The notes under the pieces: model-generated
Told to the model about the DNA's origin: nothing
Seen by the model: the letters and a program-made list of their open reading frames with translations, nothing else
Database searches by the model: none
Source: Psychrosphaera saromensis
Lineage (GTDB): Bacteria > Pseudomonadota > Gammaproteobacteria > Enterobacterales > Alteromonadaceae
DNA: 64,000 bases
NCBI RefSeq assembly: GCF_002954545.1
Contig: NZ_MSCH01000003.1
Coordinates: 1,266,824 to 1,330,823, forward strand
Direction: 5' to 3'
Program-made: the position numbers and the translations under genes
Part shown: positions 4,482-64,000 of the stretch, piece after piece
Position numbering within the stretch: the first letter of the stretch is position 1
How the letters are laid out: the number at the start of each line of letters is the position of its first letter

Positions 4482-5906
4482 ATGAGCAACGATATCAAAA
4501 CTCAAGTTGTGGTTCTTGGTGCTGGTCCGGGTGGTTACTCTGCTGCATACCGTGCAGCTGATTTAGGGTTAGACGTAGTATTAGTTGAGAAGCGCGCAAC
4601 ATTAGGCGGCGTTTGTCTAAATGTTGGTTGTATCCCATCTAAAGCATTATTACATGTAGCAAAAGTTATTGATGATGCAAAAGATATGGCATCTCACGGT
4701 GTAACATTTGGTGCACCAAAAATTGATCTTGATAAGATCCGCTCTTGGAAAGATAGCGTTGTTGCACAACTAACTAACGGTTTAGACGGAATGTCTAAAA
4801 TGCGTAAAGTTAAAGTTGTTAACGGTTTCGGTAAATTTACTGGTAGCAACACGCTAGTAGTAAATGGCGCTGATGGCGATACAACAATTACCTTTGATAA
4901 TGCAATTATTGCAGCGGGTTCTGAACCGGTAAATCTTCCATTTATTCCTGAAGATGACCGTGTAATTGACTCAACTGGTGCATTAGAACTTAAAGATATT
5001 CCTGGTGAAATGTTAGTACTAGGTGGTGGTATCATCGGTCTTGAGATGGGAACTGTTTATGCTGCATTAGGATCTAAAGTTTCTGTTGTTGAATTCTTAG
5101 ACCAACTTGTACCTGCTGCTGACAAAGACCTTGTGCAAGTTTATTCTAAATACAATAAAGACCGTTTCAACATTATGTTATCAACGAAAGTTGTAGCCGT
5201 TGAAGCTAAAAAAGACGGTTTATATGTCACGTTTGAAGGTAAAAAAGCACCTGCTGAACCTGTACGTTATGACAAAATATTAGTTGCAGTTGGTCGTAAG
5301 CCAAACGGTAACTTAATGGACGCAACTAAAGCGGGCGTTACTGTTGATGAACGTGGTTTCATTAATGTTGATAATCAATTACGTACTAACGTAAATCACA
5401 TTTTTGCAATCGGTGATGTTGTTGGTCAACCTATGTTGGCTCATAAAGCAGTTCATGAAGCACATGTTGCGGCTGAAGTTATCTCTGGTCAAAAACACTT
5501 CTTTGAACCTCAAGCTATTCCTTCTATTGCCTACACTGATCCAGAAATGGCTTGGGTTGGTATTACTGAAAAAGAAGCAAAAGAACAAGGCTTAAAAGTT
5601 GAGTCTGCTAAGTTCCCTTGGGCAGCTTCTGGCCGTGCAATTGCTTCTGCTCGTACTGAAGGTTTCACAAAGTTAATCTTTGATAAAGAAACGCACCGTA
5701 TCTTAGGTGGCGCTATTGTAGGTATCAATGCTGGTGAGATGCTAGGTGAAATCGGTTTAGCTATTGAGATGGGCGCTGATGCGGAAGATATCGCATTAAC
5801 TATCCATGCTCACCCAACGCTTAACGAGTCAATTGGTCTTGCTGCAGAAATGTATGAAGGTTCAATTACGGATTTACCAAATCCTAAAGCGAAAAAGAAA
5901 AAGTAA
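4482..5906 (+). CDS. lpdA: Dihydrolipoamide dehydrogenase (E3)
   Basis: This FAD enzyme reoxidises dihydrolipoyl groups of the pyruvate and 2-oxoglutarate dehydrogenase complexes and of glycine cleavage, producing NADH. The N-terminal FAD motif is VVLGAGPGGYSAA. The redox disulfide is in GGVCLNVGCIPSK, the NAD motif is LGGGIIGLEMG, and the catalytic His-Glu is in HAHPTLNE. Its 474 aa match the family length. It has its own leader, with an aceF terminator and two palindromes upstream, which fits regulation partly independent of aceEF because E3 is shared between complexes. Confidence 0.98.
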   Translation: MSNDIKTQVVVLGAGPGGYSAAYRAADLGLDVVLVEKRATLGGVCLNVGCIPSKALLHVAKVIDDAKDMASHGVTFGAPKIDLDKIRSWKDSVVAQLTNGLDGMSKMRKVKVVNGFGKFTGSNTLVVNGADGDTTITFDNAIIAAGSEPVNLPFIPEDDRVIDSTGALELKDIPGEMLVLGGGIIGLEMGTVYAALGSKVSVVEFLDQLVPAADKDLVQVYSKYNKDRFNIMLSTKVVAVEAKKDGLYVTFEGKKAPAEPVRYDKILVAVGRKPNGNLMDATKAGVTVDERGFINVDNQLRTNVNHIFAIGDVVGQPMLAHKAVHEAHVAAEVISGQKHFFEPQAIPSIAYTDPEMAWVGITEKEAKEQGLKVESAKFPWAASGRAIASARTEGFTKLIFDKETHRILGGAIVGINAGEMLGEIGLAIEMGADAEDIALTIHAHPTLNESIGLAAEMYEGSITDLPNPKAKKKK

Positions 5907-5975
5907 TTTTTCTTATTTGAATTGAATTAAAGGGATTACATCTTTGTACCTTTGATATTAATTCATCCTTGAATT

Positions 5976-6006
5976 AAAAAATGCCGACGTTATGTCGGCA
6001 TTTTTG
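5976..6006 (+). terminator. Intrinsic terminator after lpdA (copy 1 of 2)
   Basis: The stem atgccgac / gtcggcat has a loop of gttat, an A-run before it and a T-run after it. An identical sequence occurs at 6726-6756, on the other side of the next gene. Confidence 0.9.
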
Positions 6007-6091
6007 TGTCTGCTTTATTTATAACGTTTTTAAAAAAAATAAAGTAAACTGCATTCATCGCTATTATTCACAATCATTAAAGGAATTACCT

Positions 6092-6697
6092 GTGAAATCA
6101 ATAACTAAAACTTTAGTCATATCTTTGTATTTAACATCAACCTTAGCTCAAGCTGAGGTTGAGTCTTGGTATACATTCTGGGGAGCCGGAGTATCAAACA
6201 TTTCATATTCAGGCGACCGAGGTACTGAAATTGAAATATTAAGCCAAGAAGATGCCAGTGTAGGTGGTACACATTTAAATGCATTTGGTTTTTATTTTCC
6301 AATCGATAACAATAGTATATATGGCTTTGTTGCACACGGTGCTACATCAACTTTCACGGCAGATAGTTTGTATATTGAAGACATCACTTATAACGACACC
6401 ATGTTGGCTTTCAGCTATATGAATTTTTATGGTAGTGAAATTGGTGACGGTCTGTTTTATCGCACGGATATCGGTTATAGCGAGGCAAGTAGAACGGTTT
6501 CTTATGCAAAAAACGACTTTGGTACAAGTGAAAGTGAGTATGAATTTGGTAGCGGAATGTCAGTTCTTTTAGGTGCTGGTTATGGTATTCCAGTATCAGA
6601 AGAGAGCAGAGTATTAATATTGCTTGAATATAGAAATGCATTTATAGCTGACAATGAGATGCAAAGCATCGGGGTCACTGTTAATGGGTTATGGTAA
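6092..6697 (+). CDS. Small outer-membrane beta-barrel protein, function unknown
   Basis: I do not recognise the family. The chosen start is GTG at 6092, preceded by AAAGGAATTACCT; the open frame upstream to 5981 runs into the lpdA terminator and cannot be translated from there. The product is 201 aa. It has a signal peptide (MKSITKTLVISLYLTSTLAQA), then alternating polar/hydrophobic strands rich in Gly, Tyr and Ser, and ends in an aromatic residue (NGLW), as expected for a BAM-inserted barrel. There are no cysteines in the mature part. It is monocistronic, between two identical terminators. A porin-like or OmpW-like accessory role is only a guess. Confidence 0.7.
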   Translation: MKSITKTLVISLYLTSTLAQAEVESWYTFWGAGVSNISYSGDRGTEIEILSQEDASVGGTHLNAFGFYFPIDNNSIYGFVAHGATSTFTADSLYIEDITYNDTMLAFSYMNFYGSEIGDGLFYRTDIGYSEASRTVSYAKNDFGTSESEYEFGSGMSVLLGAGYGIPVSEESRVLILLEYRNAFIADNEMQSIGVTVNGLW

Positions 6698-6725
6698 CCT
6701 CAAACAACAGTAAAAACACAGATCT

Positions 6726-6756
6726 ATAAAATGCCGACGTTATGTCGGCATTTTTG
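6726..6756 (+). terminator. Intrinsic terminator (copy 2 of 2)
   Basis: It is the same hairpin as at 5976-6006 (atgccgac, gttat, gtcggcat, T-run), here downstream of the barrel gene. Confidence 0.9.
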
Positions 6757-6901
6757 TTTGTTTAGGTTAAATATTCACCTACACCTGAATTATCTTCATC
6801 CGATAATAGGCATGTTAGAAATCTGTTGCTATGATTGAACTAAGTCTAAGGAGAGTAGTCTACAAAGTATTACAGTTGTGCGATTAAAATTAATGCAAAA
6901 A

Positions 6902-6930
6902 TTGTAAGATCCTTTGAGTCTAGGTAGAAT
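6902..6930 (+). promoter_or_regulatory. Likely sigma-70 promoter of csrA
   Basis: TTGTAA (6902-6907), 17 bp, then TAGAAT (6925-6930) lie about 75 bp upstream of csrA. The rest of the 308-bp gap from 6698 holds only the copy-2 terminator. A 16-codon ORF (6953-7003) reads through the csrA ribosome-binding site, but nothing shows that it is translated. Confidence 0.5.
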
Positions 6931-7005
6931 GTTTACTTCGACTTAGTCGGAAATGGAGCTTTTTATTAAGCTAATTATAAGCAAATGGCATAAAAGGAGC
7001 TAATA

Positions 7006-7197
7006 ATGCTTATACTAACTCGTCGTGTTGGTGAAACGTTAATGGTCGGTGATGAAGTTACAGTTACAGTTTTAGGTGTAAAGGGCAACCAAGTAAGAAT
7101 TGGTGTTAATGCTCCTAAAGAAGTAGCAGTTCATCGTGAAGAGATATACATGCGAATTCAAGCGGAGAAGGGCGGTCAACCCTCTGAAGCTGAATAG
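7006..7197 (+). CDS. csrA: Carbon storage regulator CsrA
   Basis: CsrA is a dimeric RNA-binding protein that binds GGA motifs in mRNA leaders and controls central carbon flow, motility and biofilm formation. The 63-aa product begins [18 protein letters not shown] and contains the conserved [16 protein letters not shown] segment, so it is a full-length canonical member. Its own ribosome-binding site (AAAAGGAGC) contains a GGA, which is compatible with autoregulation. The following tRNA-Ser and tRNA-Arg block is a common gammaproteobacterial neighbourhood. Confidence 0.98.
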
Positions 7198-7201
7198 CGA
7201 T

Positions 7202-7227
7202 AAACCGGCGTTAAGCCGGTTTTTTTA
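7202..7227 (+). terminator. Intrinsic terminator of csrA
   Basis: The stem aaaccggc / gccggttt with loop gttaa is followed by a T-run. Confidence 0.9.
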
Positions 7228-7330
7228 TTTTTAAGATCTATGAATTTAAGCCACAATGTTACAAATATTAAACGATAACGTGATAATTGTTCATTTTCAA
7301 AGCAATCAACAATTTAATTAACAATTTCAT

Positions 7331-7358
7331 TTGACATATTTTCTTAGATCATTACTAT
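7331..7358 (+). promoter_or_regulatory. Strong promoter of the tRNA-Ser/tRNA-Arg operon
   Basis: A perfect -35 TTGACA (7331-7336), 16 bp, and TACTAT (7353-7358) lie just upstream of the tRNA-Ser 5' end at 7375. Confidence 0.7.
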
Positions 7359-7374
7359 ACGCACCACATTGAGT

Positions 7375-7469
<95 letters not shown>

Positions 7470-7490
7470 CAATGTTTTTGTGATTAAAGT

Positions 7491-7567
7491 GCGCTCGTAG
7501 CTCAGCTGGATAGAGTACTTGGCTACGAACCAGGCGGTCGGAGGTTCGAATCCTCCCGAGCGCACCA
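7491..7567 (+). tRNA. argV: tRNA-Arg(ACG), copy 1
   Basis: The acceptor arms GCGCTCG / CGAGCGC pair, the anticodon loop is CTACGAA (anticodon ACG) and CCA is encoded. The adenosine at position 34 should be edited to inosine by TadA. Confidence 0.97.
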
Positions 7568-7593
7568 TCATCACAGAAAAGAAGACTTATTGT

Positions 7594-7670
7594 GCGCTCG
7601 TAGCTCAGCTGGATAGAGTACTTGGCTACGAACCAGGCGGTCGGAGGTTCGAATCCTCCCGAGCGCACCA
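7594..7670 (+). tRNA. argV: tRNA-Arg(ACG), copy 2
   Basis: It is identical to the preceding tRNA-Arg and separated from it by 26 bp, a recent tandem duplication in one operon. Confidence 0.97.
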
Positions 7671-7799
7671 TATCTTTTCTTTTAATCTTCAGTAACAAAT
7701 CCAATCTAAATAAAATCTTATTCAATACATCCAAAAATACCAATATCTAACATTTATTCTTTTATCTTCAATTACTTATTATTTTTCTAAATAACTATT

Positions 7800-7841
7800 C
7801 AAATTAAATTATTATTTATTCAAATTAAATTATTATTTATT
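7800..7841. repeat. Two tandem 21-bp AT-rich repeats
   Basis: Two exact copies of a 21-bp unit (beginning caaattaaattattattta) lie head to tail. Nothing else is obvious in the 7671-8046 gap apart from generally AT-rich sequence that should contain the oad promoter. Confidence 0.8.
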
Positions 7842-8046
7842 CAATATTAATCTACCCTGATAAGTAGGTGTTTAGCGGTAAATTTAACCTGTTACTGTGA
7901 AAATTTCCTTTCAATTAGAATCAATATTGTGTTACTTAAGAGCTAATACTCTAAGTTTGATCTGCATCTCTGAATAAAATAATAAAAACAGTCGCTCTCA
8001 AACGATGTATCAATCAACATAAATAATAAACCGGGTAGTGAAACTT

Positions 8047-8292
8047 ATGAATGTATCAGAGCTGTTAGCTGAAGCTGGCATACTTATGTTGGTAGGGATG
8101 GTAGTTGTATTTCTATTCTTATCAATGCTAATTGTTGCTATCAAACTTTTAACAAAGTTTGCTGAAGCGTATCCAGATCCAATAAAGCCTAAACGCAACG
8201 AAATTAAACCTATAAGTTCTAGTAAGACTTCGCCACAGGTGATTGCAGCAATTACTGCCGCCGTAAAACAATATAAAGCGCGAAATAAATAG
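8047..8292 (+). CDS. oadG: Oxaloacetate decarboxylase gamma subunit
   Basis: This is the small membrane subunit of the Na+-translocating oxaloacetate decarboxylase, which helps assemble the complex. The 81-aa product has one N-terminal transmembrane helix ([20 protein letters not shown]) and a charged, Pro-containing cytoplasmic tail, as in OadG. ATG 8047 is preferred to GTG 8038 because a weak GGGTAG motif sits 8 nt before it. It is the first gene of the oadGAB operon, and its TAG stop overlaps the oadA ribosome-binding site. Confidence 0.85.
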
Positions 8293-16741: not shown

Positions 16742-17859
16742 TGACAGAGCAAACTTCACCGACAGCAGTATCTAAAGAAGAAACAACATCTTTACCAAGT
16801 GAGCAAACAAAAACGCCCGCTGAATTTTTCAAAGATTGGTCCTTTGAACATTGGGCCTATTTACATGGCAAACCAAAAGCCAGCGCTAAATTTAAAACCA
16901 TTCCTGAAGATTTTGTTGTCACCGAAAATTTAGGTTTTGAATTAACCGGTAGTGGCGAAAACGTATTTTTATTAATAGAAAAAACAGAGCTTAATACACA
17001 CCAAGTATGTGAATATTTAGCTAAGTTTTTTGGTCGCCGTTTACGAGATATAGGTTATGCCGGACTAAAAGATAAACAGTCGATATCGCGTCAATGGTTC
17101 TCAATACAAATGAACATAACTCAAAACATTGACCTTACTAAACTTGGTACTGAGAATATTCGTTTGATTGAGCATTCTCGCCATATTAAAAAGTTAAAAA
17201 TAGGTGCGTTAAAGTCTAATCACTTCGACATCCTTTTGAAGGATATAACCGATGTTATCGACACAATTGGCCGTTTAGAACAAATTAAAACGCAAGGTGT
17301 CCCTAATTACTTTGGTCTGCAACGATTTGGCTTTAAAGGTAATAACCTGAACTGGGCTGACAGAATGTCGGCTGGTGAAGATATTAAGAACCGAAAGATC
17401 AAAGGCTTTGCCTTATCAGCTAGCCGTTCTTATATCTTCAATGAAGTGGTCAATGAACGTTTAAAACAAAAGCTTTTTGATAAAGCGCTGAACGGTGATG
17501 TGTTTATTCTAACTGGCTCCAACTCGTATTTCAGCCAAGATGTTGATGATAAAATCACTCAACGTTTACAAGAAAATGATATTCAGGTTTCAGCTCCTTT
17601 ATTTGGTAAAGGTGAATTTGAAACCAAAGGGCAAGTGTTAGAGCTAGAAACTCAAGTGGCAGGTCAACATGCAAACTGGCAGAAAATGTTAGTGGACAAT
17701 GGACTAAAACAAGAAAGACGCAGCATCTTATTAAACCCTGATAATTTAACTTGGTTGGTAAAGGGCAATGATCTGCTAGTAAGTTTTGACTTACCTACAG
17801 GCTGCTTTGCCACTTCCATTTTACGTGAATGTGTTGATTTTATTCAGGAGTATTCATGA
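16741..17859 (+). CDS. truD: tRNA pseudouridine(13) synthase TruD
   Basis: It makes pseudouridine 13 in tRNA-Glu. Visible motifs include FKTIPEDFVV, the catalytic-Asp region GYAGLKDKQSIS, and NYFGLQRFG. At 372 aa it is slightly longer than E. coli TruD (about 349) because of an N-terminal extension rich in Ser, Thr and Glu. It overlaps the stop of ispF and, by ATGA, the start of surE. Confidence 0.95.
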   Translation: MTEQTSPTAVSKEETTSLPSEQTKTPAEFFKDWSFEHWAYLHGKPKASAKFKTIPEDFVVTENLGFELTGSGENVFLLIEKTELNTHQVCEYLAKFFGRRLRDIGYAGLKDKQSISRQWFSIQMNITQNIDLTKLGTENIRLIEHSRHIKKLKIGALKSNHFDILLKDITDVIDTIGRLEQIKTQGVPNYFGLQRFGFKGNNLNWADRMSAGEDIKNRKIKGFALSASRSYIFNEVVNERLKQKLFDKALNGDVFILTGSNSYFSQDVDDKITQRLQENDIQVSAPLFGKGEFETKGQVLELETQVAGQHANWQKMLVDNGLKQERRSILLNPDNLTWLVKGNDLLVSFDLPTGCFATSILRECVDFIQEYS

Positions 17860-53622: not shown

Positions 53623-55707
<2,085 letters not shown>

Positions 55708-55756
55708 CTACTAAAGATCACGCTGTGCGAGCTTTAATAAGATTGGTGTTTATTCC

Positions 55757-55855
55757 CTTGTTTCCTTCGCAGATATTAGTCTGAATCAGGTTCTACGGAT
55801 CCCGCTTTCGCGATCTCAGCCATTACAAAAATGTAGATGGCACTCCGACAAGTCG
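55757..55855 (-). ncRNA. TPP riboswitch (THI element)
   Basis: Read on the minus strand, it shows ggagtgcc, the conserved ggctgagatc-gcgaaagc-gggatcc core, gaacctgat, and the closing ctgcgaaggaaacaag. It sits directly after the promoter and about 130 bp before thiC, so TPP should shut off the operon. Confidence 0.95.
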
Positions 55856-55860
55856 AGCCG

Positions 55861-55889
55861 ATACTATGCTATTGAATTTTACAGTGCAA
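55861..55889 (-). promoter_or_regulatory. Promoter of the thi operon
   Basis: On the minus strand, TTGCAC (55889-55884), 17 bp, and TAGTAT (55866-55861) put the transcription start within a few bases of the riboswitch P1 helix. Confidence 0.7.
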
Positions 55890-56062
55890 GTTCTTCGCGC
55901 AAAATATAAAAAATTAGGGAATGTAAGAAAAGAGCATTTAAAATGCCGTTAGGTTTAAGTGTTTGTTTGATTATCGAGCAAGCAGTCAAAGTAAGTTAGG
56001 TATTTGCAAAATTTCATTTGCTATCTGCCCTGATATTATTTATCCTCCCTGCCGTTAAATTG

Positions 56063-56138
56063 GCCTCGATAGCTCAGTCGGTAGAGCAGAGGATTGAAAA
56101 TCCTCGTGTCCCTGGTTCGATTCCGGGTCGAGGCACCA
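56063..56138 (+). tRNA. pheT: tRNA-Phe(GAA), copy 2
   Basis: The sequence is identical to copy 1, with CCA encoded. It is first in a Phe-Thr-Phe operon. In the gap from 55890 I see no gene. Confidence 0.97.
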
Positions 56139-56197
56139 TTTACTTTCCAACGGTAAATAGTGTGTCAATTTAATGATGTTCTTGTAAAAGATCATGT

Positions 56198-56273
<76 letters not shown>

Positions 56274-56340
56274 TTTCTTTTATAGAATGCAAAGTGTTAA
56301 AAATGCATGTCTAAAGCATAAGATACAAAGCACATAATGT

Positions 56341-56416
56341 GCCTCGATAGCTCAGTCGGTAGAGCAGAGGATTGAAAATCCTCGTGTCCCTGGTTCGATT
56401 CCGGGTCGAGGCACCA
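56341..56416 (+). tRNA. pheT: tRNA-Phe(GAA), copy 3, island attachment site
   Basis: It is an intact tRNA-Phe. Its last 18 bases (ttccgggtcgaggcacca) are repeated at 57722-57739, so it is the integration target of the neighbouring decayed element. Confidence 0.97.
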
Positions 56417-56740
56417 TCTTATTCCCCTTAATATAATTTCTCTTTAGTTAAACACAGCATTAAATAATCCTGTGATTTATTAGTCGATCGTTGTTTTCGA
56501 AAGGGAATAAGATTGTGTCTCAACACAATCGAACGCTCGCTTCGCGAGGTTCGATGACTCCGTACATCCATGTACTTCGCCCTACGGGCCAGCCTTCGGC
56601 TGTTGATGAATGTTCCCGACATTCATGCTCCGGGTCAGGCACCATCTTAATATTCCCCATGTTTTATAATTAAATTCAAATTTTATATATTCTGAATACT
56701 TTTCGTATGCCTATCGTTTGCACAATATGCCGTGGGGAAT
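56399..56740. repeat. Direct repeat, left copy (tRNA 3' end plus flank)
   Basis: It begins in the tRNA-Phe T-arm and continues for about 342 bp. It is repeated with high identity at 57722-58063, at a constant offset of 1,323 bp where I compared it. It contains a short IR (atcttattccc 56416-56426 / gggaataagat 56503-56513), a hairpin-rich segment and a second, degraded tRNA-like tail near 56630. Confidence 0.85.
56529..56626. repeat. Hairpin-rich repeat, copy A
   Basis: Four consecutive hairpins occur: tcgaac-g-ctcgc / gcgag-gttcga, gtacat / atgtac, cagcc / ggctg, and atgaatgt / acattcat. Copies B and C are at 57852 and 58087. Confidence 0.8.
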
Positions 56741-56899
56741 CAAAGTTTGTTCAGGGTAAGCCGCACCTGTTTCATCAATAACCCAGTCAGTATCTATTCC
56801 AAAGAACAAGTCATATAGGTAATCAAACGGATCTGACGTACTACTTGAGTGAGCTTGGCTTGTCACTAATAGCATTAATAATATTATTATTTTTTTCAT
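56711..56899 (-). CDS. Small secreted protein, possibly 3'-truncated
   Basis: This 62-aa ORF has a clear signal peptide (MKKIIILLMLLVTSQAHS) and an AAGGA ribosome-binding site 6 nt before the ATG. The mature part (about 44 aa, acidic, aromatic-rich) is unrecognised. Its last ten or so codons lie in the duplicated repeat, so the original C-terminus may have been lost. It is divergent from the barrel gene across 59 bp. Confidence 0.5.
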   Translation of the reverse strand: MKKIIILLMLLVTSQAHSSSTSDPFDYLYDLFFGIDTDWVIDETGAAYPEQTLIPHGILCKR

Positions 56900-56958
56900 T
56901 TAATTTCCTTTTAATTGTGTTTAATATGTATCTTAAATTGATATGGATTAAAATTATT

Positions 56959-57429
56959 ATGTTTAATAAGATTGATACATTGCTTTTTTTTATATTAGGT
57001 ATTTCTGCTTTTCCCACTTTTTCGAGCAATAAGTCTATCCCTATAGAAGTTGGTATAGGGGTTGAGTATGGTGGAGCGGGTAGTCAAATATTTCTTCCAG
57101 CAAGTAATCAGAAATTTAACTCATATGTTACGGTAGGTGTTGTTAGTGCGTTTAGTGAAAATGAAAACACATTCATTGTTAGTGGTGTAGGCGTAAATTT
57201 TCGACTAAATCGACAATCAACCTGGGGATTGTATTCAGGAATTCTGGGAACAGAATCTCACTTTAATATTAATGATGAATCATTAATAGAACGACAAAAA
57301 GTAAGTCTTTATGGCTTATCTGTTAACTATAAGCATAAAATTTTAAAATCAAATTTTTATCTTGGGGCAAGCTATAATATTTATTCAGAAGGTACATACC
57401 CTATGATAACATTTTCATACAAGTATTGA
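56959..57429 (+). CDS. Small outer-membrane beta-barrel protein, unknown
   Basis: I do not recognise the family. ATG 56959 gives 156 aa: a signal peptide (FFILGISAFPTFS), then Gly-rich alternating strands (GIGVEYGGAGSQIF, SGVGVNFRL, FYLGASYNIYS) and a C-terminal aromatic (SYKY) typical of barrels. Upstream in-frame starts to 56845 lack a ribosome-binding site and overlap the divergent gene. It is island cargo. Confidence 0.6.
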   Translation: MFNKIDTLLFFILGISAFPTFSSNKSIPIEVGIGVEYGGAGSQIFLPASNQKFNSYVTVGVVSAFSENENTFIVSGVGVNFRLNRQSTWGLYSGILGTESHFNINDESLIERQKVSLYGLSVNYKHKILKSNFYLGASYNIYSEGTYPMITFSYKY

Positions 57430-57475
57430 TCTTCGGTTTTTATAGCGATGTTCCTCTAAGTTAGTATTTTTACTA

Positions 57476-57723
57476 TCAATCATTAAACCGATCGATCACA
57501 GCTTTCATTTTCTCAGCAACTTGAGTTTGTTCAAGGTGAGCATAGCGCATTGTTGTACCAATATTTGAGTGACCTAAAACGTGTGCAGTTTCTTTTAGAT
57601 TAAAGCTGTTTTGAACTAATCGACTGGCACAAGTATGACGAAAATCATGTACTCTGAAGTCATCAATACCAGCATTAGCAATAGCTCTACGAATTGAAAT
57701 AGTAACTTGTTCCAGACAAATTT
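57476..57723 (-). pseudogene. Tyrosine recombinase (phage integrase), C-terminal remnant
   Basis: The reading frame encodes about 80 residues ending at TGA 57478-57476. It includes the catalytic HDFRHTCASRL box and LGHSNIGTTMRYAHL, with the nucleophile Tyr. The N-terminal two thirds, including the first catalytic Arg, are missing; the frame runs straight into the duplicated tRNA-Phe tail. It cannot be active alone, but proves the origin of the flanking repeats. Confidence 0.9.
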
Positions 57724-58063
57724 CCGGGTCGAGGCACCATCTTATTCCCCTTAATATAATTTCTCTTTAGTTAAACACCGCATTAAATAATCCTGTAATT
57801 TATTAGTCGATCGTTGTTTTCGAAAGGGAATAAGATTGTGACTCAACATAATCGAACGCTCGCTTCGCGAGGTTCGATGACTCCGTACATCCATGTACTT
57901 CGCCCTACGGGCCAGCTAAAGCTGTTGATGAATGTTCCAGACATTTATGCTCCGAGTACGAGGCACCATCTTAATATTCCCATTCTTATATTATTAAATT
58001 CAAATCTTATATATTCTGAATACTTTTCGCATGCTTATCGTTCGCATCATATGGCGTGGGGAA
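57722..58063. repeat. Direct repeat, right copy
   Basis: It is the second copy of the 56399-56740 sequence, starting with the 18-bp tRNA-Phe 3' end (57722-57739), with scattered substitutions and small changes at the internal tRNA-like tail (57950-57969). Confidence 0.85.
57852..57949. repeat. Hairpin-rich repeat, copy B
   Basis: The layout is the same as copy A, but the third hairpin is cagc-taaa-gctg in place of cagcc-ttc-ggctg: sequence differs while pairing is kept. Confidence 0.8.
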
Positions 58064-58086
58064 TAATAAGATAGTTTCACTACACA

Positions 58087-58378
58087 TCGAACGCTCTCTG
58101 CGCTCGGTTAGATTATGAAATACATCCATGTATATGTTGTTACGCTTGTTTATTTGCGCATTCAGTAGGAATTAAAAATTGTTTAGGCGAGATAGATTGT
58201 GTAGGCATAGTTGTTCTACGTCAAATCAATTTAGCGAAGCATAAACTATTTTTAAACCTATCGCAGACATGACAAAACATGTTTTGGCTTGCTGATTGTG
58301 TAAATAAACAAGTGGAACAACATCAAGCCCTACGGGCCAGCTAAAGCTGTTGATGAATGTTCCAGACATTCATGCTCC
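58087..58378. repeat. Hairpin-rich repeat, copy C, interrupted
   Basis: The first two hairpins (58087-58132) and the last two (58328-58378) match copies A and B. About 190 bp of unrelated AT-rich sequence separates them, probably an insertion. Nothing coding is visible in 58064-58541. Confidence 0.65.
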
Positions 58379-58541
58379 TGGTATGAATGCTGAGTCGTTG
58401 GGTTTTAAGTTAATTCAAAGAATATTTTTTATTTTTCTAGTAATTTTATACGCTTATAAAATTATTTATTACCCGCCTTGTTTTTATATAAATGTGGATT
58501 ATATTCAATAATACCTTACGTTCCTTTTATCGGAATTTATT

Positions 58542-59786
58542 ATGTCGCTATTTAGAAAGGAAGCTGTAGCCCAACAAAGTGAACGCCTAACGGGCGCGAT
58601 TATTCTGGCTCAGCCATTATCAATAAAGTTAACGGTAGCCACACTTGTCGCCATTGCTGCTGCAATTGTGTTATTTATTTTTACTGCTGAGTATTCTAGA
58701 AAAGAAACAGTTCGTGGCTTTTTAGTCCCAAGCAAAGGTGTAGTTAAAAGCGTAGCAACACAAGGTGGTGTGGTTGATAAACTTTGGGTGAAAGAGGGTG
58801 ATAAAGTAATAAAAGGCCAACCGCTTGTTAGTATTATTATTCAAAAGAAAAACGCCACAGGAATTGATTTAAGTGACCAGCTTATTGAGCAAATTGAACA
58901 TCAAACGTTAATGCTTGTTGATGAAATAAGCCAACACAACACACTCCAATTACAAGAAGTTAAACATTTAAAACAACGTTATTTAGCATTGAAAAATGAA
59001 CAAGGTGCATTAACAAATCAGTTAACTTTAGCGGATGAAAAGTTAATCTTATTGTTGGCACAACAAGATCATTTTAATACGTTAAGTAAAAATGGTCACC
59101 TCTCCAAGTTTGAAAAAGACACTCAAGAGCAAGAGTTACTAGCCGCAAAACAAGAAAAACAAAATATTAATCGTTTGTTGATACAACAACAAAATGAACT
59201 CACTCAAGTTAGTTTTAATATTGAAAATATTCCTCAGCAATATGCCCTTAAAATCAATAGTCTGAAACGCCAACAAAGCGAATTTTCTAGCCAAATAGCA
59301 CAAATATCTAACGGCCATAAATATACGATTACCGCGAGCCAAGGCGGAGTCGTGTCTGGCATCCAAGTTTTTGAGGGAGAAAACTTAACCCAGGCAAAAT
59401 CTATATTGCATATTCTGCCAGAAGATTCAGAACTGATTGCAGAACTGCTATTGCCAACTCGTTCAGCTGGATTTATTGAGGAAGGGAATAACACTCGGTT
59501 ACGTTTTGATGCCTTCCCATATCAACGCTTCGGTTTTATCCAAAGCCAAATTGTACAAATAGATCAAACATTGATCACACCAAATGAAAGACAAATGCCT
59601 ATTGCACTACAAGAGCCAGTTTATAGATTAAGAGCTAAGTTGAATCAACAGCAAATCCAAGCGTTTGGCAAAGCGTTCGACTTAAAAAGCGGGATGTTAT
59701 TTGACGCAGACATCATGCTTGAGCAACGCACATTAATAGAATGGTTACTAGAACCCATATACAGCTTAAAAGGCCGTGTCGATTAA
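58542..59786 (+). CDS. HlyD-family membrane fusion protein of the microcin exporter (CvaA-like)
   Basis: This periplasmic adaptor should bridge the inner-membrane ABC exporter to TolC. The 414-aa product has a short cytoplasmic N-terminus and one transmembrane helix (residues about 28-50). A half lipoyl motif (GGVVDKLWVKEGDKVIKGQPL) is followed by a long coiled coil (about 110-245, rich in Gln/Leu/Lys), the second lipoyl half (SQGGVVSGIQVFEGENL) and a beta-barrel C-terminus. It has the size and layout of CvaA of the colicin V system. It is the first gene of the locus. Confidence 0.92.
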   Translation: MSLFRKEAVAQQSERLTGAIILAQPLSIKLTVATLVAIAAAIVLFIFTAEYSRKETVRGFLVPSKGVVKSVATQGGVVDKLWVKEGDKVIKGQPLVSIIIQKKNATGIDLSDQLIEQIEHQTLMLVDEISQHNTLQLQEVKHLKQRYLALKNEQGALTNQLTLADEKLILLLAQQDHFNTLSKNGHLSKFEKDTQEQELLAAKQEKQNINRLLIQQQNELTQVSFNIENIPQQYALKINSLKRQQSEFSSQIAQISNGHKYTITASQGGVVSGIQVFEGENLTQAKSILHILPEDSELIAELLLPTRSAGFIEEGNNTRLRFDAFPYQRFGFIQSQIVQIDQTLITPNERQMPIALQEPVYRLRAKLNQQQIQAFGKAFDLKSGMLFDADIMLEQRTLIEWLLEPIYSLKGRVD

Positions 59787-59864
59787 TGCTATGGCTAAAC
59801 TAAAATGGGTGTTTGGTAATAAATAGCGATAAGAATTTAAAAGAATTTTCTAACTAAGGACTTT

Positions 59865-60034
59865 CTAATCAGAAGATTAGTGTTAATAACTAGACCTTAA
59901 TGGAAAATAGGGCGGCTAGCTTTAGTCAACTTTGAACAGAACAACTAAAGCCAGCCAAATTAACCGCTAACTTAAATAATTTAAGTTAGCTAATTAACAA
60001 TCCGACAACATCTTAATGGTAAGAGAACGTCGGA
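59865..60034 (+). promoter_or_regulatory. Hairpin-rich leader upstream of the microcin gene
   Basis: Four inverted repeats follow each other. They are ctaatc / gattag (59865-59880); a 13-bp stem with one mismatch (59914-59926 / 59944-59956); a perfect 12-1-12 palindrome (59966-59990); and tccgac / gtcgga enclosing tctta / taaga (60001-60034). The last ends just before the GGAG ribosome-binding site. Confidence 0.6.
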
Positions 60035-60051
60035 AACATGGAGTATATATT

Positions 60052-60321
60052 ATGCGTGAATTAAACGTAAATGAAATTGAACAAGTTAATGGTGGTGTTA
60101 TACCTGGTGCTATTATAGGTGCGATTGCTGGTGGTGCTAATGAGGCTGCATCTGGAGGTAGTACCGGTGATATCGTTGGTGCGGTCATGATGGGGGCTAT
60201 AGCAGGTGCTACTGGTGGCTTAGCTAGTGCTGCTTTCAAAGCAGGACAAAAATTTGCTGGGGCTTTATTGGGTACAACTTCAGTATATTCAACCGTCCTT
60301 CCATCACTAACTAAGTCTTGA
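60052..60321 (+). CDS. Class II microcin precursor with double-glycine leader
   Basis: The 89-aa product has the leader MRELNVNEIEQVNGG, ending in Gly-Gly at residues 14-15. This closely follows the colicin V-type leader pattern MR-x-L-x-x-NE-x-x-x-V-x-GG. Cleavage gives a predicted 74-aa mature peptide that is rich in Gly and Ala, hydrophobic, without Cys, and has several G-x-x-x-G spacings (AIAGGANEAASGG, GAIAGATGG). It ends in SLTKS. It should insert in target inner membranes. ATG 60052 follows GGAG; an open frame back to 60016 overlaps the leader hairpin and is rejected. I do not recognise the mature sequence, so it looks new. Confidence 0.88.
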   Translation: MRELNVNEIEQVNGGVIPGAIIGAIAGGANEAASGGSTGDIVGAVMMGAIAGATGGLASAAFKAGQKFAGALLGTTSVYSTVLPSLTKS

Positions 60322-60354
60322 TAATAAATAACATGCAGAAGCTTTAAATTAATG

Positions 60355-60388
60355 TGCAAAGAGTACTTAGATACTCTTTGCATTTTTC
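60355..60388 (+). terminator. Terminator directly after the microcin gene
   Basis: The perfect stem tgcaaagagta / tactctttgca with loop cttaga is followed by a T-run. It would allow a short, abundant microcin mRNA with limited readthrough into the genes behind it. Confidence 0.9.
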
Positions 60389-60407
60389 GAAACTATGAAG
60401 GCATACA

Positions 60408-60731
60408 ATGAAAAAAGTACTTATTAGATACTGTTCTATTTATCAAGACTGGAACGATGACAACATAGAAAAATGGAATAGCCAAAGACAGAGTGGAATG
60501 TTTAAGTTCATATTAATTGAAGGTGTCATTAAATGGGGGGTAACAGCAGCATTTTTATTTATTTCGCTTAAGCTGGTAATGAATGATGTAGGTAAAATGG
60601 AGATTATGAGAATTTGTTTTATATGGTTAGTTGCATCACTCGTATATGGCTACGTATATTGGGTAGGTACAACGGCATCATATGAAAATTATGTAGCCAA
60701 TAATAAAAAAACTCACGATGCTAGAGTCTAG
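60408..60731 (+). CDS. Small membrane protein, candidate microcin immunity protein
   Basis: I do not recognise this 107-aa product. It has two predicted transmembrane helices (about residues 38-57 and 68-88), a charged N-terminus with several Trp (YQDWNDDNIEKWNSQRQSG) and a hydrophilic tail. Size, topology and position right after the microcin gene match immunity proteins of class II microcins such as Cvi. Assignment is by context only. Confidence 0.6.
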   Translation: MKKVLIRYCSIYQDWNDDNIEKWNSQRQSGMFKFILIEGVIKWGVTAAFLFISLKLVMNDVGKMEIMRICFIWLVASLVYGYVYWVGTTASYENYVANNKKTHDARV

Positions 60732-60749
60732 TATTTGGGAGAATAATCT

Positions 60750-60899
60750 ATGCAACAATTAGACTTGAAAGTAGGTTCTGTAGTATTAAACTTTTGTTTA
60801 ACATTCCTACTTTGCCAAACATTTTTAAGTGTTATTTACGGTTACGAAATTGATCTGTTCAATTTACTTTTATTAATACTACTAGGGCCTCTTATATAA
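60750..60899 (+). CDS. Tiny membrane protein, 49 aa, unknown
   Basis: The ATG at 60750 has a GGGAG site 8 nt upstream. The product is nearly all hydrophobic, with two possible helices (SVVLNFCLTFLLCQTFLSVI and NLLLLILLGPLI). It could be a second immunity or accessory peptide, or the N-terminal remnant of a longer gene. Nothing similar is known to me. Confidence 0.45.
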   Translation: MQQLDLKVGSVVLNFCLTFLLCQTFLSVIYGYEIDLFNLLLLILLGPLI

Positions 60900-60971
60900 T
60901 TATTTACGTGAAAGTAAAAAGGTATTATCAATTAAATATTTTGTATTACCGCCTATTTTAGGATTGTGCTT

Positions 60972-61088
60972 ATGGATCGCTTTATATTTATAGCTGGAGT
61001 GCTCTTAGCAAGACTCATTAAGGTTAATTTAAAAGAAGATATTGACTTGGAAAGGGTAAATTCATATCTCACTAATTCACTGGCGTAA
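60972..61088 (+). CDS. Tiny ORF, 38 aa, unknown
   Basis: The ATG at 60972 has AGGA 8 nt upstream. The product MDRFIFIAGVLLARLIKVNL continues with an acidic tail. It has one short hydrophobic segment. It may be an accessory peptide of the locus or simply a chance ORF. Confidence 0.35.
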   Translation: MDRFIFIAGVLLARLIKVNLKEDIDLERVNSYLTNSLA

Positions 61089-61097
61089 GTCGTAATT

Positions 61098-61130
61098 TTA
61101 ATCCTTTAAGTTGAAGGCTTAAAGGATTAA
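61098..61130 (+). promoter_or_regulatory. Hairpin that occludes the exporter ribosome-binding site
   Basis: Perfect 13-bp arms ttaatcctttaag (61098-61110) and cttaaaggattaa (61118-61130) have a 7-nt loop. The right arm contains the AAAGGA site for ATG 61135. In mRNA this would hide the site and limit translation of the exporter. Confidence 0.7.
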
Positions 61131-61134
61131 GAGC

Positions 61135-63291
61135 ATGGAGGGTACAACAATCGACAACTCAATCTTAAACTTCTCATCTTTAAAATCAGTATCTTTGATC
61201 CTGCAAGCCGAAGTTGCTGAATGTGGTTTAGCTTCTATGGCGATGGTGGCGAGTTTTTATGGCCACCAACTTGATATGCCTGCCATGCGGAAGCGTTTTT
61301 CTGCCAACTTAAAAGGCATGAACTTACAGCAATTAATTGATGTGGGTGACAGTCTTGGTTTAGCAAGCCGTGCATTACAATGCCCGATAGATGACGTGCA
61401 TAAATTAGCAACGCCATGCATTTTACATTGGGATATGAATCACTTTGTGGTGCTAACTAAAGTCTCTGGTAAAGGCAGTAAATCTACTTTTTCTATTAAT
61501 GATCCCGCCGTCGGTAAACGTACCTTAACCTTTGACGAATTTGGTAAACATTTTACTGGTATTTGTTTGGAATTAACCCCTACTAATAAATTTGAAGTAA
61601 AACAAGAACAAGCTCGGATGAAGTTTACCCAGTTGTGGAGTTCAATGTCTGGATTAAAATCTGGACTGGTTAAGCTGGTATCTTTGTCTTTGGTATTACA
61701 ACTTTTTGCACTGATGTCGCCATATTATATGCAGTGGGTGGTGGATGAGGTATTAGTTAGTTTTGATGAACCCTTGTTAACTGTGTTGGCTATGGGCTTT
61801 GGCTTAATTGTTATTATTTCCACTATAACCAACGCAGTACGTAGTTGGCTTATTCTGCGTTTATCCAGCGTGCTTAATATGCAAATGGGTGTGAATTTAC
61901 TCAGGCATTTATTGCGCCTGCCAATGAATTATTTTGAGTCTCGGCATGTGGGAGATATTATTTCTCGTTTTGGATCCCTTGCGCAAATCCGTGAACGGAT
62001 TACTACTGGTTTTGTGGAGACCTTAGTAGATGGTGTGATGTCTATTACGGTATTAATTATGATGGCGTTATATTCATTAAAGTTGACTGCTATTGTTTTA
62101 GGGGCAATAACTTTATATACAATAGTGCGTTTAGTTTTGTACCGTCCTTTGCACCAGGCAACAGAGGAGATGATCCAAAGCTCAGCCAAAGAGCAATCTA
62201 GTTTTTTAGAAAATATCCGTGGCATGCAAACCATTAAGTTGTTTGGTAATGAATCTCAACGACAAGGTATTTGGCAAAACCGTTATGCAGAAGTGATAAA
62301 TTCTGAAATTAGACTTGGCCGACTAAACATAAGTTTTGAGTCTTTTAACAAACTGTTATTTGGTCTAGAGAATGTATTTGTTATTTATTTTGCTGCACAG
62401 ATGGTGATGGTTAATAGCTTAACCGTTGGTATGGTATTGGCGTTTATTGCTTATAAAGGTCAGCTAACGCAACGTTTTGCTAATTTAATTGAGCAAATTA
62501 TTCAGTTTAAAATGATGCGTTTACACCTTGACCGCATTTCCGATATTGCGCTCACTAATCAAGAGGCTAATAGAGAAGGGAAAGGCGATGGTAATGGAAG
62601 TCTACAACTTTCAACTGGTTCTTCAAAAGGAGCGCTAACGTTAGAAAATATATGTTTTGCTTATAGTGATGAAGATGCATCCATTTTAAACAATGTTAAC
62701 TTGTCATTAAACGCAGGTGATTCTATTGCGATTACTGGCCCATCTGGTGCGGGTAAAACAACGCTAATGAAAATTATGCTTGGGCTATTACAACCAACAT
62801 CTGGCAGGGTATTGCTCGATGGTAAAGACATTACTCACATTGGCTTAAAAAATTACCGTAAACAGATAGCTGCCGTTATGCAGGACGATACATTATTGGC
62901 GGGGTCCATTGCTGACAATATTAGCTTTTTTGATACTCAACCTGATTTTGCAAAAATAGAGCAGAGTGCTCAGTTAGCGTCTATTCATGATGATATTGGT
63001 AAAATGACAATGGGATATAACTCTTTGGTGGGTGACATGGGCTCTAACCTTTCAGGTGGACAACTTCAGCGCGTTTTACTCGCCAGAGCTTTATATCAAT
63101 CACCAAGTATTTTATATATGGATGAAGCGACAAGCCATTTAGACACAGATAATGAAGCTAAAATTAGTGAGCAAATCCAGCACTTATCAATGACGCGTAT
63201 TATGATTGCACACAGGAAAGAAACGATTAATATGGCCAATAAAGTTTATCAGTTACTTGATGGCCAGTTGACCGAACTCAATAAGCTTTAA
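61135..63291 (+). CDS. C39-peptidase ABC exporter of the microcin (CvaB-like)
   Basis: This inner-membrane transporter removes the double-glycine leader and exports the peptide. Its 718 aa comprise three parts. The first is an N-terminal C39 peptidase (residues 20-145) with oxyanion Gln24, catalytic Cys30 (AECGLAS), His103 (NHFVVL) and Asp123 (NDPA). The second is a six-helix membrane domain (about 175-450). The third is an ATPase with Walker A GPSGAGKTT (535-543), signature LSGGQLQRV (639-647), Walker B ILYMDE (659-664) and H-loop His693. All catalytic residues are intact, so the export machine looks functional. Confidence 0.95.
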   Translation: MEGTTIDNSILNFSSLKSVSLILQAEVAECGLASMAMVASFYGHQLDMPAMRKRFSANLKGMNLQQLIDVGDSLGLASRALQCPIDDVHKLATPCILHWDMNHFVVLTKVSGKGSKSTFSINDPAVGKRTLTFDEFGKHFTGICLELTPTNKFEVKQEQARMKFTQLWSSMSGLKSGLVKLVSLSLVLQLFALMSPYYMQWVVDEVLVSFDEPLLTVLAMGFGLIVIISTITNAVRSWLILRLSSVLNMQMGVNLLRHLLRLPMNYFESRHVGDIISRFGSLAQIRERITTGFVETLVDGVMSITVLIMMALYSLKLTAIVLGAITLYTIVRLVLYRPLHQATEEMIQSSAKEQSSFLENIRGMQTIKLFGNESQRQGIWQNRYAEVINSEIRLGRLNISFESFNKLLFGLENVFVIYFAAQMVMVNSLTVGMVLAFIAYKGQLTQRFANLIEQIIQFKMMRLHLDRISDIALTNQEANREGKGDGNGSLQLSTGSSKGALTLENICFAYSDEDASILNNVNLSLNAGDSIAITGPSGAGKTTLMKIMLGLLQPTSGRVLLDGKDITHIGLKNYRKQIAAVMQDDTLLAGSIADNISFFDTQPDFAKIEQSAQLASIHDDIGKMTMGYNSLVGDMGSNLSGGQLQRVLLARALYQSPSILYMDEATSHLDTDNEAKISEQIQHLSMTRIMIAHRKETINMANKVYQLLDGQLTELNKL

Positions 63292-63341
63292 TTGAATAAG
63301 TTTTAAACTAAAAAAGAAATAATCTAAAAAGGAAATAAATT

Positions 63342-64000
63342 ATGGATAACTTGAATCAAGAAAAGGACGTGTTTTCACTTTCAGGATCTTTATTATGGTG
63401 CTTTACATTAACTGTTGGGCTTTAGATCATAATTAGTTTTGTATTTACAGTCGGTTTGAGTATAAATGGTGTTGCTTCTGATGATATAGAAGCACAGTTT
63501 TTAAAGCCAGATATCATGTTTTATACGTCCTTAATTGCAATGCTCTTATCTATTCCTTTAGTAAAATCTGCTTCCAAACAAGTTACTTATACTCACTTAG
63601 CTAGCTTTATAAAAATGATGCCAATTAAAAAAACAGACGTTAATAAAGCCAATTTGTAATTGGCTTTGTGTATTACCTTTTTAAATATTTAACCGTTAAG
63701 TTATTAGGTATTGGAACCCCGCAATACATGTTGGATGTAAAATCACAGGTTAGTACTAATTGGGATTTAATTTTACTTGTTATAGCTGTTTGTATTATTG
63801 CGCCGATTGTTGAAGAGGTGATTTTTAGAGGTGTTATTTTTTCAAGACTTCAAAACAGTAGAGTTGGTTCACCTGATGCTATTGTCTACACTAGTATTTT
63901 TTTTTGTATTTTACATGTACATTATGAGTTAATTATCATGAGATATACACTTTTGATAGGAGTGATGTTGGGCTTTATTAGTTTGAAAACCAGCAATATT
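63342..64000 (+). pseudogene. CPBP-family intramembrane protease, disrupted, 3'-partial
   Basis: The frame starts at ATG 63342 (MDNLNQEKDVFSLSGSLLW), meets TAG at 63423-63425, stays open to TAA 63657, and then shifts by one base. The second part (from about 63647) carries the CPBP motifs APIVEEVIFRG (Glu-Glu-x-x-x-Arg) and FFCILHVHYE (Phe-x-x-x-His), running off the window. CPBP proteins (Abi/CAAX protease family) often give bacteriocin self-immunity. With one nonsense codon and one frameshift it is probably inactive, unless these are sequence errors. Confidence 0.75.

Follow-up and report, generated by a model that had tools for sequence, protein, structure and literature searches.

Toward the end of the 64,000-nucleotide (nt) stretch of Psychrosphaera saromensis DNA analyzed here (the window; C6:1266824-1330823 of a 3.64-Mb genome) lies the first of three stacked units of what is probably a class II microcin locus of cassette type. 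Its constant part would serve export, its exchanged part would consist of a peptide core and the likely immunity gene, and a structured element, possibly an antisense RNA, likely controls the precursors. The original prediction, made from the letters of this stretch, had described a HlyD adaptor, a precursor of 89 amino acids (aa), small open reading frames (ORFs) and a C39 exporter, all of which lie where it had placed them (Table 1). Its description of the system as complete is right as to the parts and wrong as to the extent: the window covers one of three stacked units, and the array continues over the next 9 kb of the contig. It also noticed the leader of the precursor, while overlooking that an identical leader stands over unrelated cores, that there is a boundary at Gly-Gly and that a structured element is present.

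The leader, MRELNVNEIEQVNGG, is letter-identical in 4/4 precursors of the P. saromensis genome, among whose four cores no similarity was found at E<1e-5. We place the start of the window precursor at 60052 because GGAG and the conserved leader fit this position and not the longer frame from an alternative in-frame start at 60016, which would give 101 aa. The core contains 15 Gly, 16 Ala and no Cys, a count that agrees with the earlier description of a Gly/Ala-rich, Cys-free mature peptide of 74 aa; it carries seven GxxxG motifs and would have an average mass of 6752.7 Da if cut after Gly-Gly. A first protein search with the whole precursor returned 22 proteins, all of which have the leader in common and none of which is a convincing relative of the core; core homologues surfaced through leader and element searches. 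Some relatives are labelled 'lactobin A/cerein 7B family' in their source records. A leader profile (A1) built from 24 precursors and used in a protein search at E<=10 retrieved 119 proteins, and the exact leader is found in 62/119, two of these being from P. saromensis itself, a fraction that is biased upwards because exact-leader sequences had gone into the profile and scoring was limited to the candidates with the most shared words. Together with the window core, these 62 exact-leader proteins fall into 43 core clusters. Among 395 genomes of the family, 114 (30/52 genera) have a match to the leader profile at E<=0.1, a loose threshold.

The position at which DNA homology stops was examined in the best 80 of at least 568 exporter relatives (at least 588 pattern stretches) from named genomes, including Colwellia, Thalassotalea and Pseudoalteromonas, together with L013, the extended P. 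saromensis locus (window coordinate = L013 coordinate + 53176). The L014 repeats of L013 were dropped, and L051 and L052, which hold the same three precursors, come from the two ends of a single contig. Precursors were called by leader similarity (at least 8/15 residues and a Gly-Gly end); 83 were found, 81 of them on the strand of the exporter. When the DNA around the leader was compared all against all, 735 pairs were in register, and in 265 of these the homology extends 100 nt or more upstream of the ATG. The leader ends 45 nt after the ATG, and the alignments of these long pairs end 40-50 nt after it in 228 cases, at 51-57 nt in 13, before 35 nt in 10 and beyond 57 nt in 14. Among the 40 pairs that are at least 80% identical, the alignment stops at 44-54 nt in 35, and the other 5 are near-identical loci that run through; that is, in 35/40 close pairs a DNA homology of 80-98% stops at the Gly-Gly codon or within 10 nt of it. 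The clearest single case is L032, in which two precursors are 98% identical over 313 nt and then pass into unrelated cores. The DNA shared by the P. saromensis copies likewise stops at the end of the leader.

Because the DNA shared between copies mostly stops at the start of the payload, we propose that exchange likely moves the payload together with its predicted immunity gene, as one cassette. The diversity of the cores could alternatively reflect rapid point mutation at a single locus, driven by diversifying selection, with no exchange of cassettes, and a conserved/variable boundary would follow from nothing more than purifying selection acting on the leader and the 5' element. This alternative appears quite improbable, since cores that differ in length and have no detected similarity lie beside flanks that are 90-98% identical (the P. 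saromensis copies and L032), and since core families turn up beside other leaders and exporters while keeping their downstream gene. Detached gene ends also speak against it: precursors are preceded by HlyD 3' ends in L032 and, three times, in L168, another such end lies in L075, and exporter 5' ends are found in L013 and L015. Such ends are few (5/84 loci scanned, with split or contig-edge genes in L028, L066 and L087 left out). In L168 (genome G055; 5500-8200), three of four stacked Gly-Gly precursors are preceded by a HlyD 3' piece of 43-44 residues. Exchange is thus the better reading, because purifying selection on the leader alone cannot explain dissimilar cores beside flanks so close. 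Two points weigh against it. The sequence pairs are not independent, and a sharp 3' cassette boundary at the exporter start was not found and had to be rejected, as in 706/860 pairs the homology sets in only beyond the first 40 nt of the exporter gene.

If core and immunity gene move together, related cores should keep related neighbors, and the ORFs that follow the precursors were compared between loci, pair by pair. A downstream ORF is shared by 10/14 core-sharing locus pairs and by 33/932 non-sharing pairs, 24 of these 33 through the CPBP family (Fisher p 1.1e-11, for pairs that are not independent). Several of these counts tell against linkage: the remaining 4/14 core-sharing pairs have no common downstream ORF, as point mutation at one locus would also allow; three of the ten linked pairs are near-identical loci or lie on one contig (L024/L025, L051/L052, L064/L068); and the downstream ORF shared by L071/L091 is another Gly-Gly peptide. 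Six clean pairs are left when these three and L071/L091 are set aside (L019/L029, L021/L023, L025/L032, L026/L029, L029/L076 and L042/L053), and two of the six join a locus with its precursor before the exporter to one with its precursor behind it. Related cores thus tend, on sequence grounds, to go with related downstream membrane genes, across genera.

For the window core, the partner suggested by linkage is the 107-aa ORF. A protein search with this ORF returned itself and one relative only (P0024, 77%). Six-frame comparison located the core in G163 (44% over 72 aa) next to a homologue of the 107-aa ORF (39% over 104 aa), with HlyD at 70% and the exporter at 82%, and in G066 (41% over 70 aa), again with an adjacent homologue (47% over 92 aa). 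We predict that the 107-aa ORF encodes the immunity protein because the two recur side by side in these two other genomes. A third core match, in G055, is partial (44 aa), and the absence of a 107-aa ORF homologue from that genome counts against the pairing; two weaker matches to the window core lie in L091 (E 0.002 and 0.008). No HlyD or exporter match was found in the 10 kb around the G066 core. The stretch concerned (L166, 2600-8450) holds several Gly-Gly precursors and immunity-like genes and has the appearance of an orphan cassette island.

A structured element of three hairpins (h1 to h3) and ~140 nt stands before all four P. saromensis precursors. In an alignment of 20 elements (A3), the sense structure pairs in 88.9% of cells and 16/29 pairs have changes on both sides, whereas slid structures, used as a control, pair in at most 44.8% of cells. 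The sense covariation score is 0.293, compared with 0.143 +- 0.012 in 500 shuffles, and 0/500 shuffles reach any of five measures, for the plus and the minus alignment alike. A covariance model (R1) trained on the 20 elements and run over 83 sources gave 36 distinct strong matches (at least 41 bits), consisting of the 20 training elements and 16 held-out ones, and 16/16 held-out matches run up to the ATG with which a Gly-Gly precursor starts. The P. saromensis genome contains exactly 4 matches, each before one of its 4 precursors. Among the 395 genomes, 42 (18/52 genera), several of which coincide with the named loci, contain 64 element matches at E<=0.001; of the element loci inspected (29 from this search and the 4 of P. 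saromensis), 33/33 end at a precursor ATG. The h1 loop motif AACTTTAGCG occurs with up to 2 mismatches in 28/80 upstream regions, compared with 3.3 expected, and four Shewanella loci with differing stems are among the 28. Against a general role for the element, a strong match is present at 36/83 precursors only, and is missing from second precursors of tandem pairs and from most Shewanella and more distant loci. Weaker R1 matches, of 20-30 bits, mark further precursor starts (L021, L024, L025, L044, L076) as well as reverse matches of the palindromic h1.

Rfam release 15 has no match to the element at E<=1 in window positions 55000-64000, and on L065, L021 and L029 it gave a single sub-threshold match, to RAGATH-8 (18.7 vs 86.7 bits; L029 4700-4912). 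In a literature search mostly without subscription papers, we recognized no work on the leader, the cassettes or the element in Alteromonadales. Two weak element matches lie away from any recognized precursor (L035 4135-4220, 27 bits; L026 1665-1758, 23.5 bits). In the Shewanella loci L041, L042, L044 and L076, a AACTTTAGCG-like loop on what by eye is a different stem stands before precursors located behind the exporter.

The hairpins might act as DNA rather than RNA, folding as single strands into a recombination site for cassette capture, and in tandem copies (L029, L026 and L013 precursor 16403) the element does border on the stretch that is exchanged. We consider such a role highly improbable: the breakpoints fall at the Gly-Gly codon, past the element and not inside it, wobble-type changes are tolerated more on one strand than on the other, and the copies in P. 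saromensis occur solely at precursors. An integron-like attC site, suggested by the palindromes, was likewise set aside, judged on position and wobble pattern only.

If the element acts as RNA, its strand becomes the question, and on balance the fold energies, wobble asymmetry and U-rich tails favor an antisense RNA that would control the precursor. The window element reaches a minimum free energy of -50.4 kcal/mol on the minus strand and -39.3 on the plus strand (z -6.48 vs -5.74), the minus strand folds lower in 33/36 elements, and the alignment folds point the same way (A3, -33.7 vs -23.5 kcal/mol; A2, -17.3 vs -7.1). Mismatches in the sense structure comprise 41 A.C and 20 G.U, an excess that fits the antisense reading because the minus strand would then pair with G.U wobbles. 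A minus structure (A5, 37 pairs), drawn up after the minus fold had been seen, pairs in 92.5% of cells, and 0/500 shuffles reach it. Behind h1 on the minus strand, TTTT is found in 24/36 elements and AAAA in 1/36, which resembles an intrinsic terminator, and the conserved spacer between ribosome site and ATG carries an extended -10-like TGNTA(T/C)(A/G)CT on that strand in 23/36. Codons 2-8 of the leader have an identity of 0.82 at conserved residues, compared with 0.61 for codons 9-15 and 0.47 for HlyD (0.65 in its best 7-codon window; 20 loci for the leader, 17 for HlyD), an extra constraint that fits an overlapping promoter and equally fits start-site effects.

It is also possible, if on the doubtful side, that the element is a cis-regulatory 5' untranslated region (UTR) of the precursor mRNA, serving as an mRNA stabilizer or translation switch, and that there is no antisense RNA. 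In 36/36 strong matches, as in the 33 loci inspected, the precursor ATG marks the end of the element, h3 sits just before the ribosome site, the sense structure is itself backed by covariation, and the window sense fold has the low z noted above. Moreover, a minus-strand model (R2) scored higher than R1 on 8 of the 16 held-out elements and lower on the other 8, although it is 11 positions longer, so that held-out scores do not favor the minus strand and the covariance-model score was rejected as a means of deciding between strands. Further points weigh against an antisense RNA. A sigma-70 scan found 8 promoter-like sites compared with 11.0 in shuffles, which is no excess; the U-run behind h1 in the window is only TTTT, some bases off the stem; and a terminator scan did not flag h1, whose loop is longer than the scan allows. 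That scan gave 5 sites where 1.4 were expected, and these include h2 as read on the minus strand. What a UTR accounts for less well is the lower folding of the minus strand, in single elements and in both alignments, the predominance of mismatches that become wobbles on the minus strand, and the U-rich run beside h1; these weaken the sense strand as the sole reading. We retain the antisense RNA, as likelier than not, for the proposed mechanism of control.

Beyond the window, the array repeats its constant part. Two further HlyD genes (L013 11854-13092 and 14570-15808) encode proteins 95-96% identical to the window copy, a second complete exporter (C6:1337743-1339869) is 95% identical to that of the window, and two fragments resemble the exporter 5' end (L013 13868-13962, 87-88% DNA identity; 17390-17451, 77%). 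Three further precursors start at L013 13357, 16079 and 16403, with small membrane ORFs nearby, and unit 3 includes an open CPBP protease ORF of 257 aa (L013 16586-17359). The CPBP gene behind exporter 1 has stops in all three frames in a three-frame reading; CPBP genes are candidates for immunity in such loci. Older payloads may also have left traces. In the uncultured Psychrosphaera relative L015, the locus lies beside a matching tRNA cluster and has a different core. Positions 60750-60899 of the window correspond at 96% to the opening portion of an intact membrane ORF of 81 aa in this relative (L015:10553), and the later part of that ORF would map to the stretch containing 60966-61088, so that 60750-61088 reads as a frame-broken copy and was dropped as a second immunity gene in use. 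The second exporter is followed by an 80-aa ORF that shares 87.5% identity with the one downstream of the quite different core of L015. By this resemblance, both the 80-aa ORF and the frame-broken 60750-60899 are predicted to be left-over immunity genes.

Five parts define a class II microcin system in the portion of the review consulted: a precursor with a Gly-Gly signal, a C39 exporter (PCAT), a HlyD/membrane fusion protein (MFP), TolC and an immunity protein (PMC9746304). The precursor has the signal expected of the class (ending in GG or GA, with a core below 10 kDa), here Gly-Gly before 74 aa of 6752.7 Da, and a C39 exporter with Cys/His/Asp, an MFP (HlyD_3) and TolC are all present. As the original prediction had it, the catalytic and ATPase motifs of the exporter are intact: Cys30, His103 and Asp123, which align with the solved ABC-type bacteriocin transporter 8vp3/4ry2, Walker A GPSGAGKT (535), LSGGQ (639) and the Walker B region (659). 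The transporter 8vp3/4ry2 (PCAT1) is among the nearest solved relatives of the exporter. TolC family PF02321 scores above its cut-off in 8 stretches within 4 open frames of the genome, unlinked to the array, and the fifth part, immunity, is predicted from the linkage of the 107-aa ORF to the core in 2/3 other genomes with a core match. The earlier assignment to class II microcins therefore stands on four of the five listed parts, with the fifth predicted; the family profiles do not back it, and weigh against it. The precursor scores 11.7 bits (E 0.39, cut-off 27) with MccV PF17508 of Pfam, 11.0 bits (cut-off 27.1) with Bacteriocin_IIc PF10439, also of Pfam, and 16.5 bits (cut-off 21.5) with NCBIfam TIGR03949 (lactobin A/cerein 7B), so that filing it into a Pfam or NCBIfam sequence family was rejected; the proposed check of the 89-aa precursor by microcin profile and database thus ended below cut-off on the one side and, on the other, in 22 matches that are all leader-based. 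The exporter scores 501 bits with the NHLP bacteriocin exporter TIGR03796, whose cut-off is 853.3. By its parts and logic, the locus nonetheless likely belongs with the class II microcin-like systems, and both its cassette form and its RNA element appear new.

It is conceivable that the peptides are instead signals or matrix or biofilm factors, and the downstream membrane proteins receptors or chaperones. Gly-Gly peptides are described as enabling biofilm development in a cyanobacterium, in the part of that report available (PMC4997328), and some cores here are polar and short (L013 precursors 16079 and 16403). This explanation is unlikely, given that highly variable cores co-inherited with small membrane and CPBP proteins match the logic of bacteriocins and immunity, and that adjacent core pairs are common to L025/L032 and to L021/L023, like two-peptide bacteriocins.

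Based on these comparisons, we propose that the constant part of the locus comprises the HlyD adaptor, the structured 5' element, the 15-residue leader and the C39 ABC exporter. The leader would be bound by the C39 domain and cut after Gly-Gly, and the core would leave through the exporter, HlyD and TolC, steps that are established for the family. The Gly/Ala-rich core would then attack the membranes of related bacteria, from which the 107-aa protein, with two predicted transmembrane (TM) segments, would protect the producer. New payloads may enter as core-plus-immunity cassettes between the constant flanks, presumably by homologous recombination with the leader/5' region as the left arm, and old ones would persist stacked or broken. 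The least certain step is the control: an antisense RNA of ~140 nt would start beside the ribosome site, end at h1 and restrain translation of the precursor in cis until a signal relieves the repression. Because the P. saromensis element copies are ~90% alike, this RNA may act across all cassettes. We tentatively extend the cassette proposal, as quite possible though short of probable, to a polymorphic microcin system in which the invariant leader and antisense RNA form a portable head for payload-plus-immunity cassettes swapped among bacteria of the order, with one RNA silencing all precursors.

Table 1. Features of the first unit, in window coordinates.
Feature	Position	Strand	Details
HlyD-family periplasmic adaptor, unit 1 of 3	58542-59786	+	414 aa; Pfam HlyD_3 49.5 bits, cut-off 22.2
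Three-hairpin element, minus reading (predicted antisense RNA)	59901-60054	-	R2 match 138.2 bits
Three-hairpin element, plus reading (5' region of precursor mRNA)	59911-60054	+	R1 126 bits; ends at ATG
Predicted antisense RNA span	~60035 down to ~59895	-	h1 near 59914-59957; short U-rich tail
Precursor	60052-60321	+	89 aa; Gly-Gly leader
Leader MRELNVNEIEQVNGG	60052-60096	+	15 residues, last two Gly-Gly
Core, predicted antibacterial payload	60097-60318	+	74 residues
Predicted cognate immunity protein	60408-60731	+	107 aa; two predicted TM segments (hydropathy)
Frame-broken gene copy, predicted remnant, immunity-like	60750-61088	+	ORFs 60750-60899 and 60966-61088
C39 peptidase ABC exporter, unit 1	61135-63291	+	718 aa; Pfam Peptidase_C39 E 4.5e-29, ABC_membrane, ABC_tran
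CPBP (Rce1-like) protease gene 3' of exporter 1	63343-64067, beyond window end (64000)	+	PF02517 64.9 bits; last ORF

Several features lie around the array. Three tRNAs (56063-56413) stand just upstream of it, the outer two identical over 77 nt, and a matching stretch flanks the L015 locus. Between the tRNAs and HlyD there is a 340-nt direct repeat (92%; 56399-56740 and 57722-58064), with related 60-nt copies at 57902 and 58327, and a 194-aa ORF (56845-57429) that by eye looks like a small outer-membrane barrel and has no Pfam or NCBIfam match at E<=1. Further out, a thiamine pyrophosphate (TPP) riboswitch (64.4 bits; 55745-55857, minus strand) lies upstream of a thiC-like gene, a 680-aa ORF (53623-55665) named by eye. 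Among more distant relatives, a plasmid of Shewanella oneidensis MR-1 (NC_004349.1, 38960-41050) encodes an exporter 66% identical to that of the window. L071, L091 and L092, on contigs titled Aquimarina, have related exporters (50-52%) and Gly-Gly peptides before HlyD, several with Cys/His-rich tails. Aquimarina belongs to the Bacteroidota, and these loci possibly reflect inter-phylum transfer or mixed bins.

The locus resembles the MccV/ColV-type class II microcins of Enterobacterales in its Gly-Gly signal, C39 exporter, HlyD/MFP, TolC and predicted immunity protein, as far as the excerpted account of these systems goes (PMC9746304). It differs from them in having a core without Cys (class IIa has disulfides) and without the Gly/Ser-rich C-terminus of class IIb, a precursor between HlyD and the exporter, an identical leader over unrelated cores, a structured element and stacked units. 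The original prediction held that characterized class II microcins come almost only from Enterobacteriaceae; McbC of Moraxella catarrhalis is an exception, and its mcbABCI cluster is summarized in the accessible text as four genes, comprising secretion genes, the Gly-Gly peptide McbC and the small immunity protein McbI, with killing and immunity tested (PMC2761928). Both loci are Gram-negative and lie outside the Enterobacteriaceae, a likeness by description only, and mcbABCI has one peptide and one immunity gene.

By analogy, the closest logic to that of the locus appears to be in the blp region of Streptococcus pneumoniae, which, in the sections of the two papers at hand, combines a conserved Gly-Gly leader, Ala/Gly-rich peptides, variable bacteriocin and immunity content, CAAX (CPBP) immunity proteins and recombination (PMC4517551, PMC4739721). 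The blp region is Gram-positive and run by the pheromone BlpC and the two-component system BlpHR, and those sections mention no structured element. No BlpC or BlpHR genes were noticed in the ORF lists of the locus, and no profile search was aimed at them. The NHLP and lactobin A/cerein 7B groups likewise share the Gly-Gly leader and C39 exporter; the scores here fall below the TIGR03796 and TIGR03949 cut-offs. Polymorphic toxins (contact-dependent inhibition, CDI, and Rhs) are large proteins with a constant delivery part, a variable toxin tip with its immunity gene, and displaced orphan modules, whereas the payload of this locus is fused to a constant leader of 15 residues, whose removal by cleavage is predicted. 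Type I toxin-antitoxin systems (Sok, IstR) place antisense RNAs opposite a toxin mRNA. The predicted antisense RNA would similarly lie opposite the 5' region of a gene for a small membrane-active peptide; unlike in those systems, export and a protein immunity factor are predicted for the peptide.

If these proposals are correct, the export tag acts as a universal socket, one leader carrying many unrelated peptides. Because 43 core clusters share the exact leader, leader and element would serve as search handles for a large and mostly unnamed group of bacteriocins of marine Gram-negative bacteria. The Gly-Gly boundary makes microcin cassette exchange directly testable, and core-immunity pairs would become readable by linkage. 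A conserved antisense RNA on bacteriocin precursors would be, to our knowledge, a new mode of control for this class. Should one RNA indeed silence all stacked precursors, a genome could therefore bank several microcins safely behind one switch, in a manner that may recall the orphan toxin arrays of contact-dependent inhibition.

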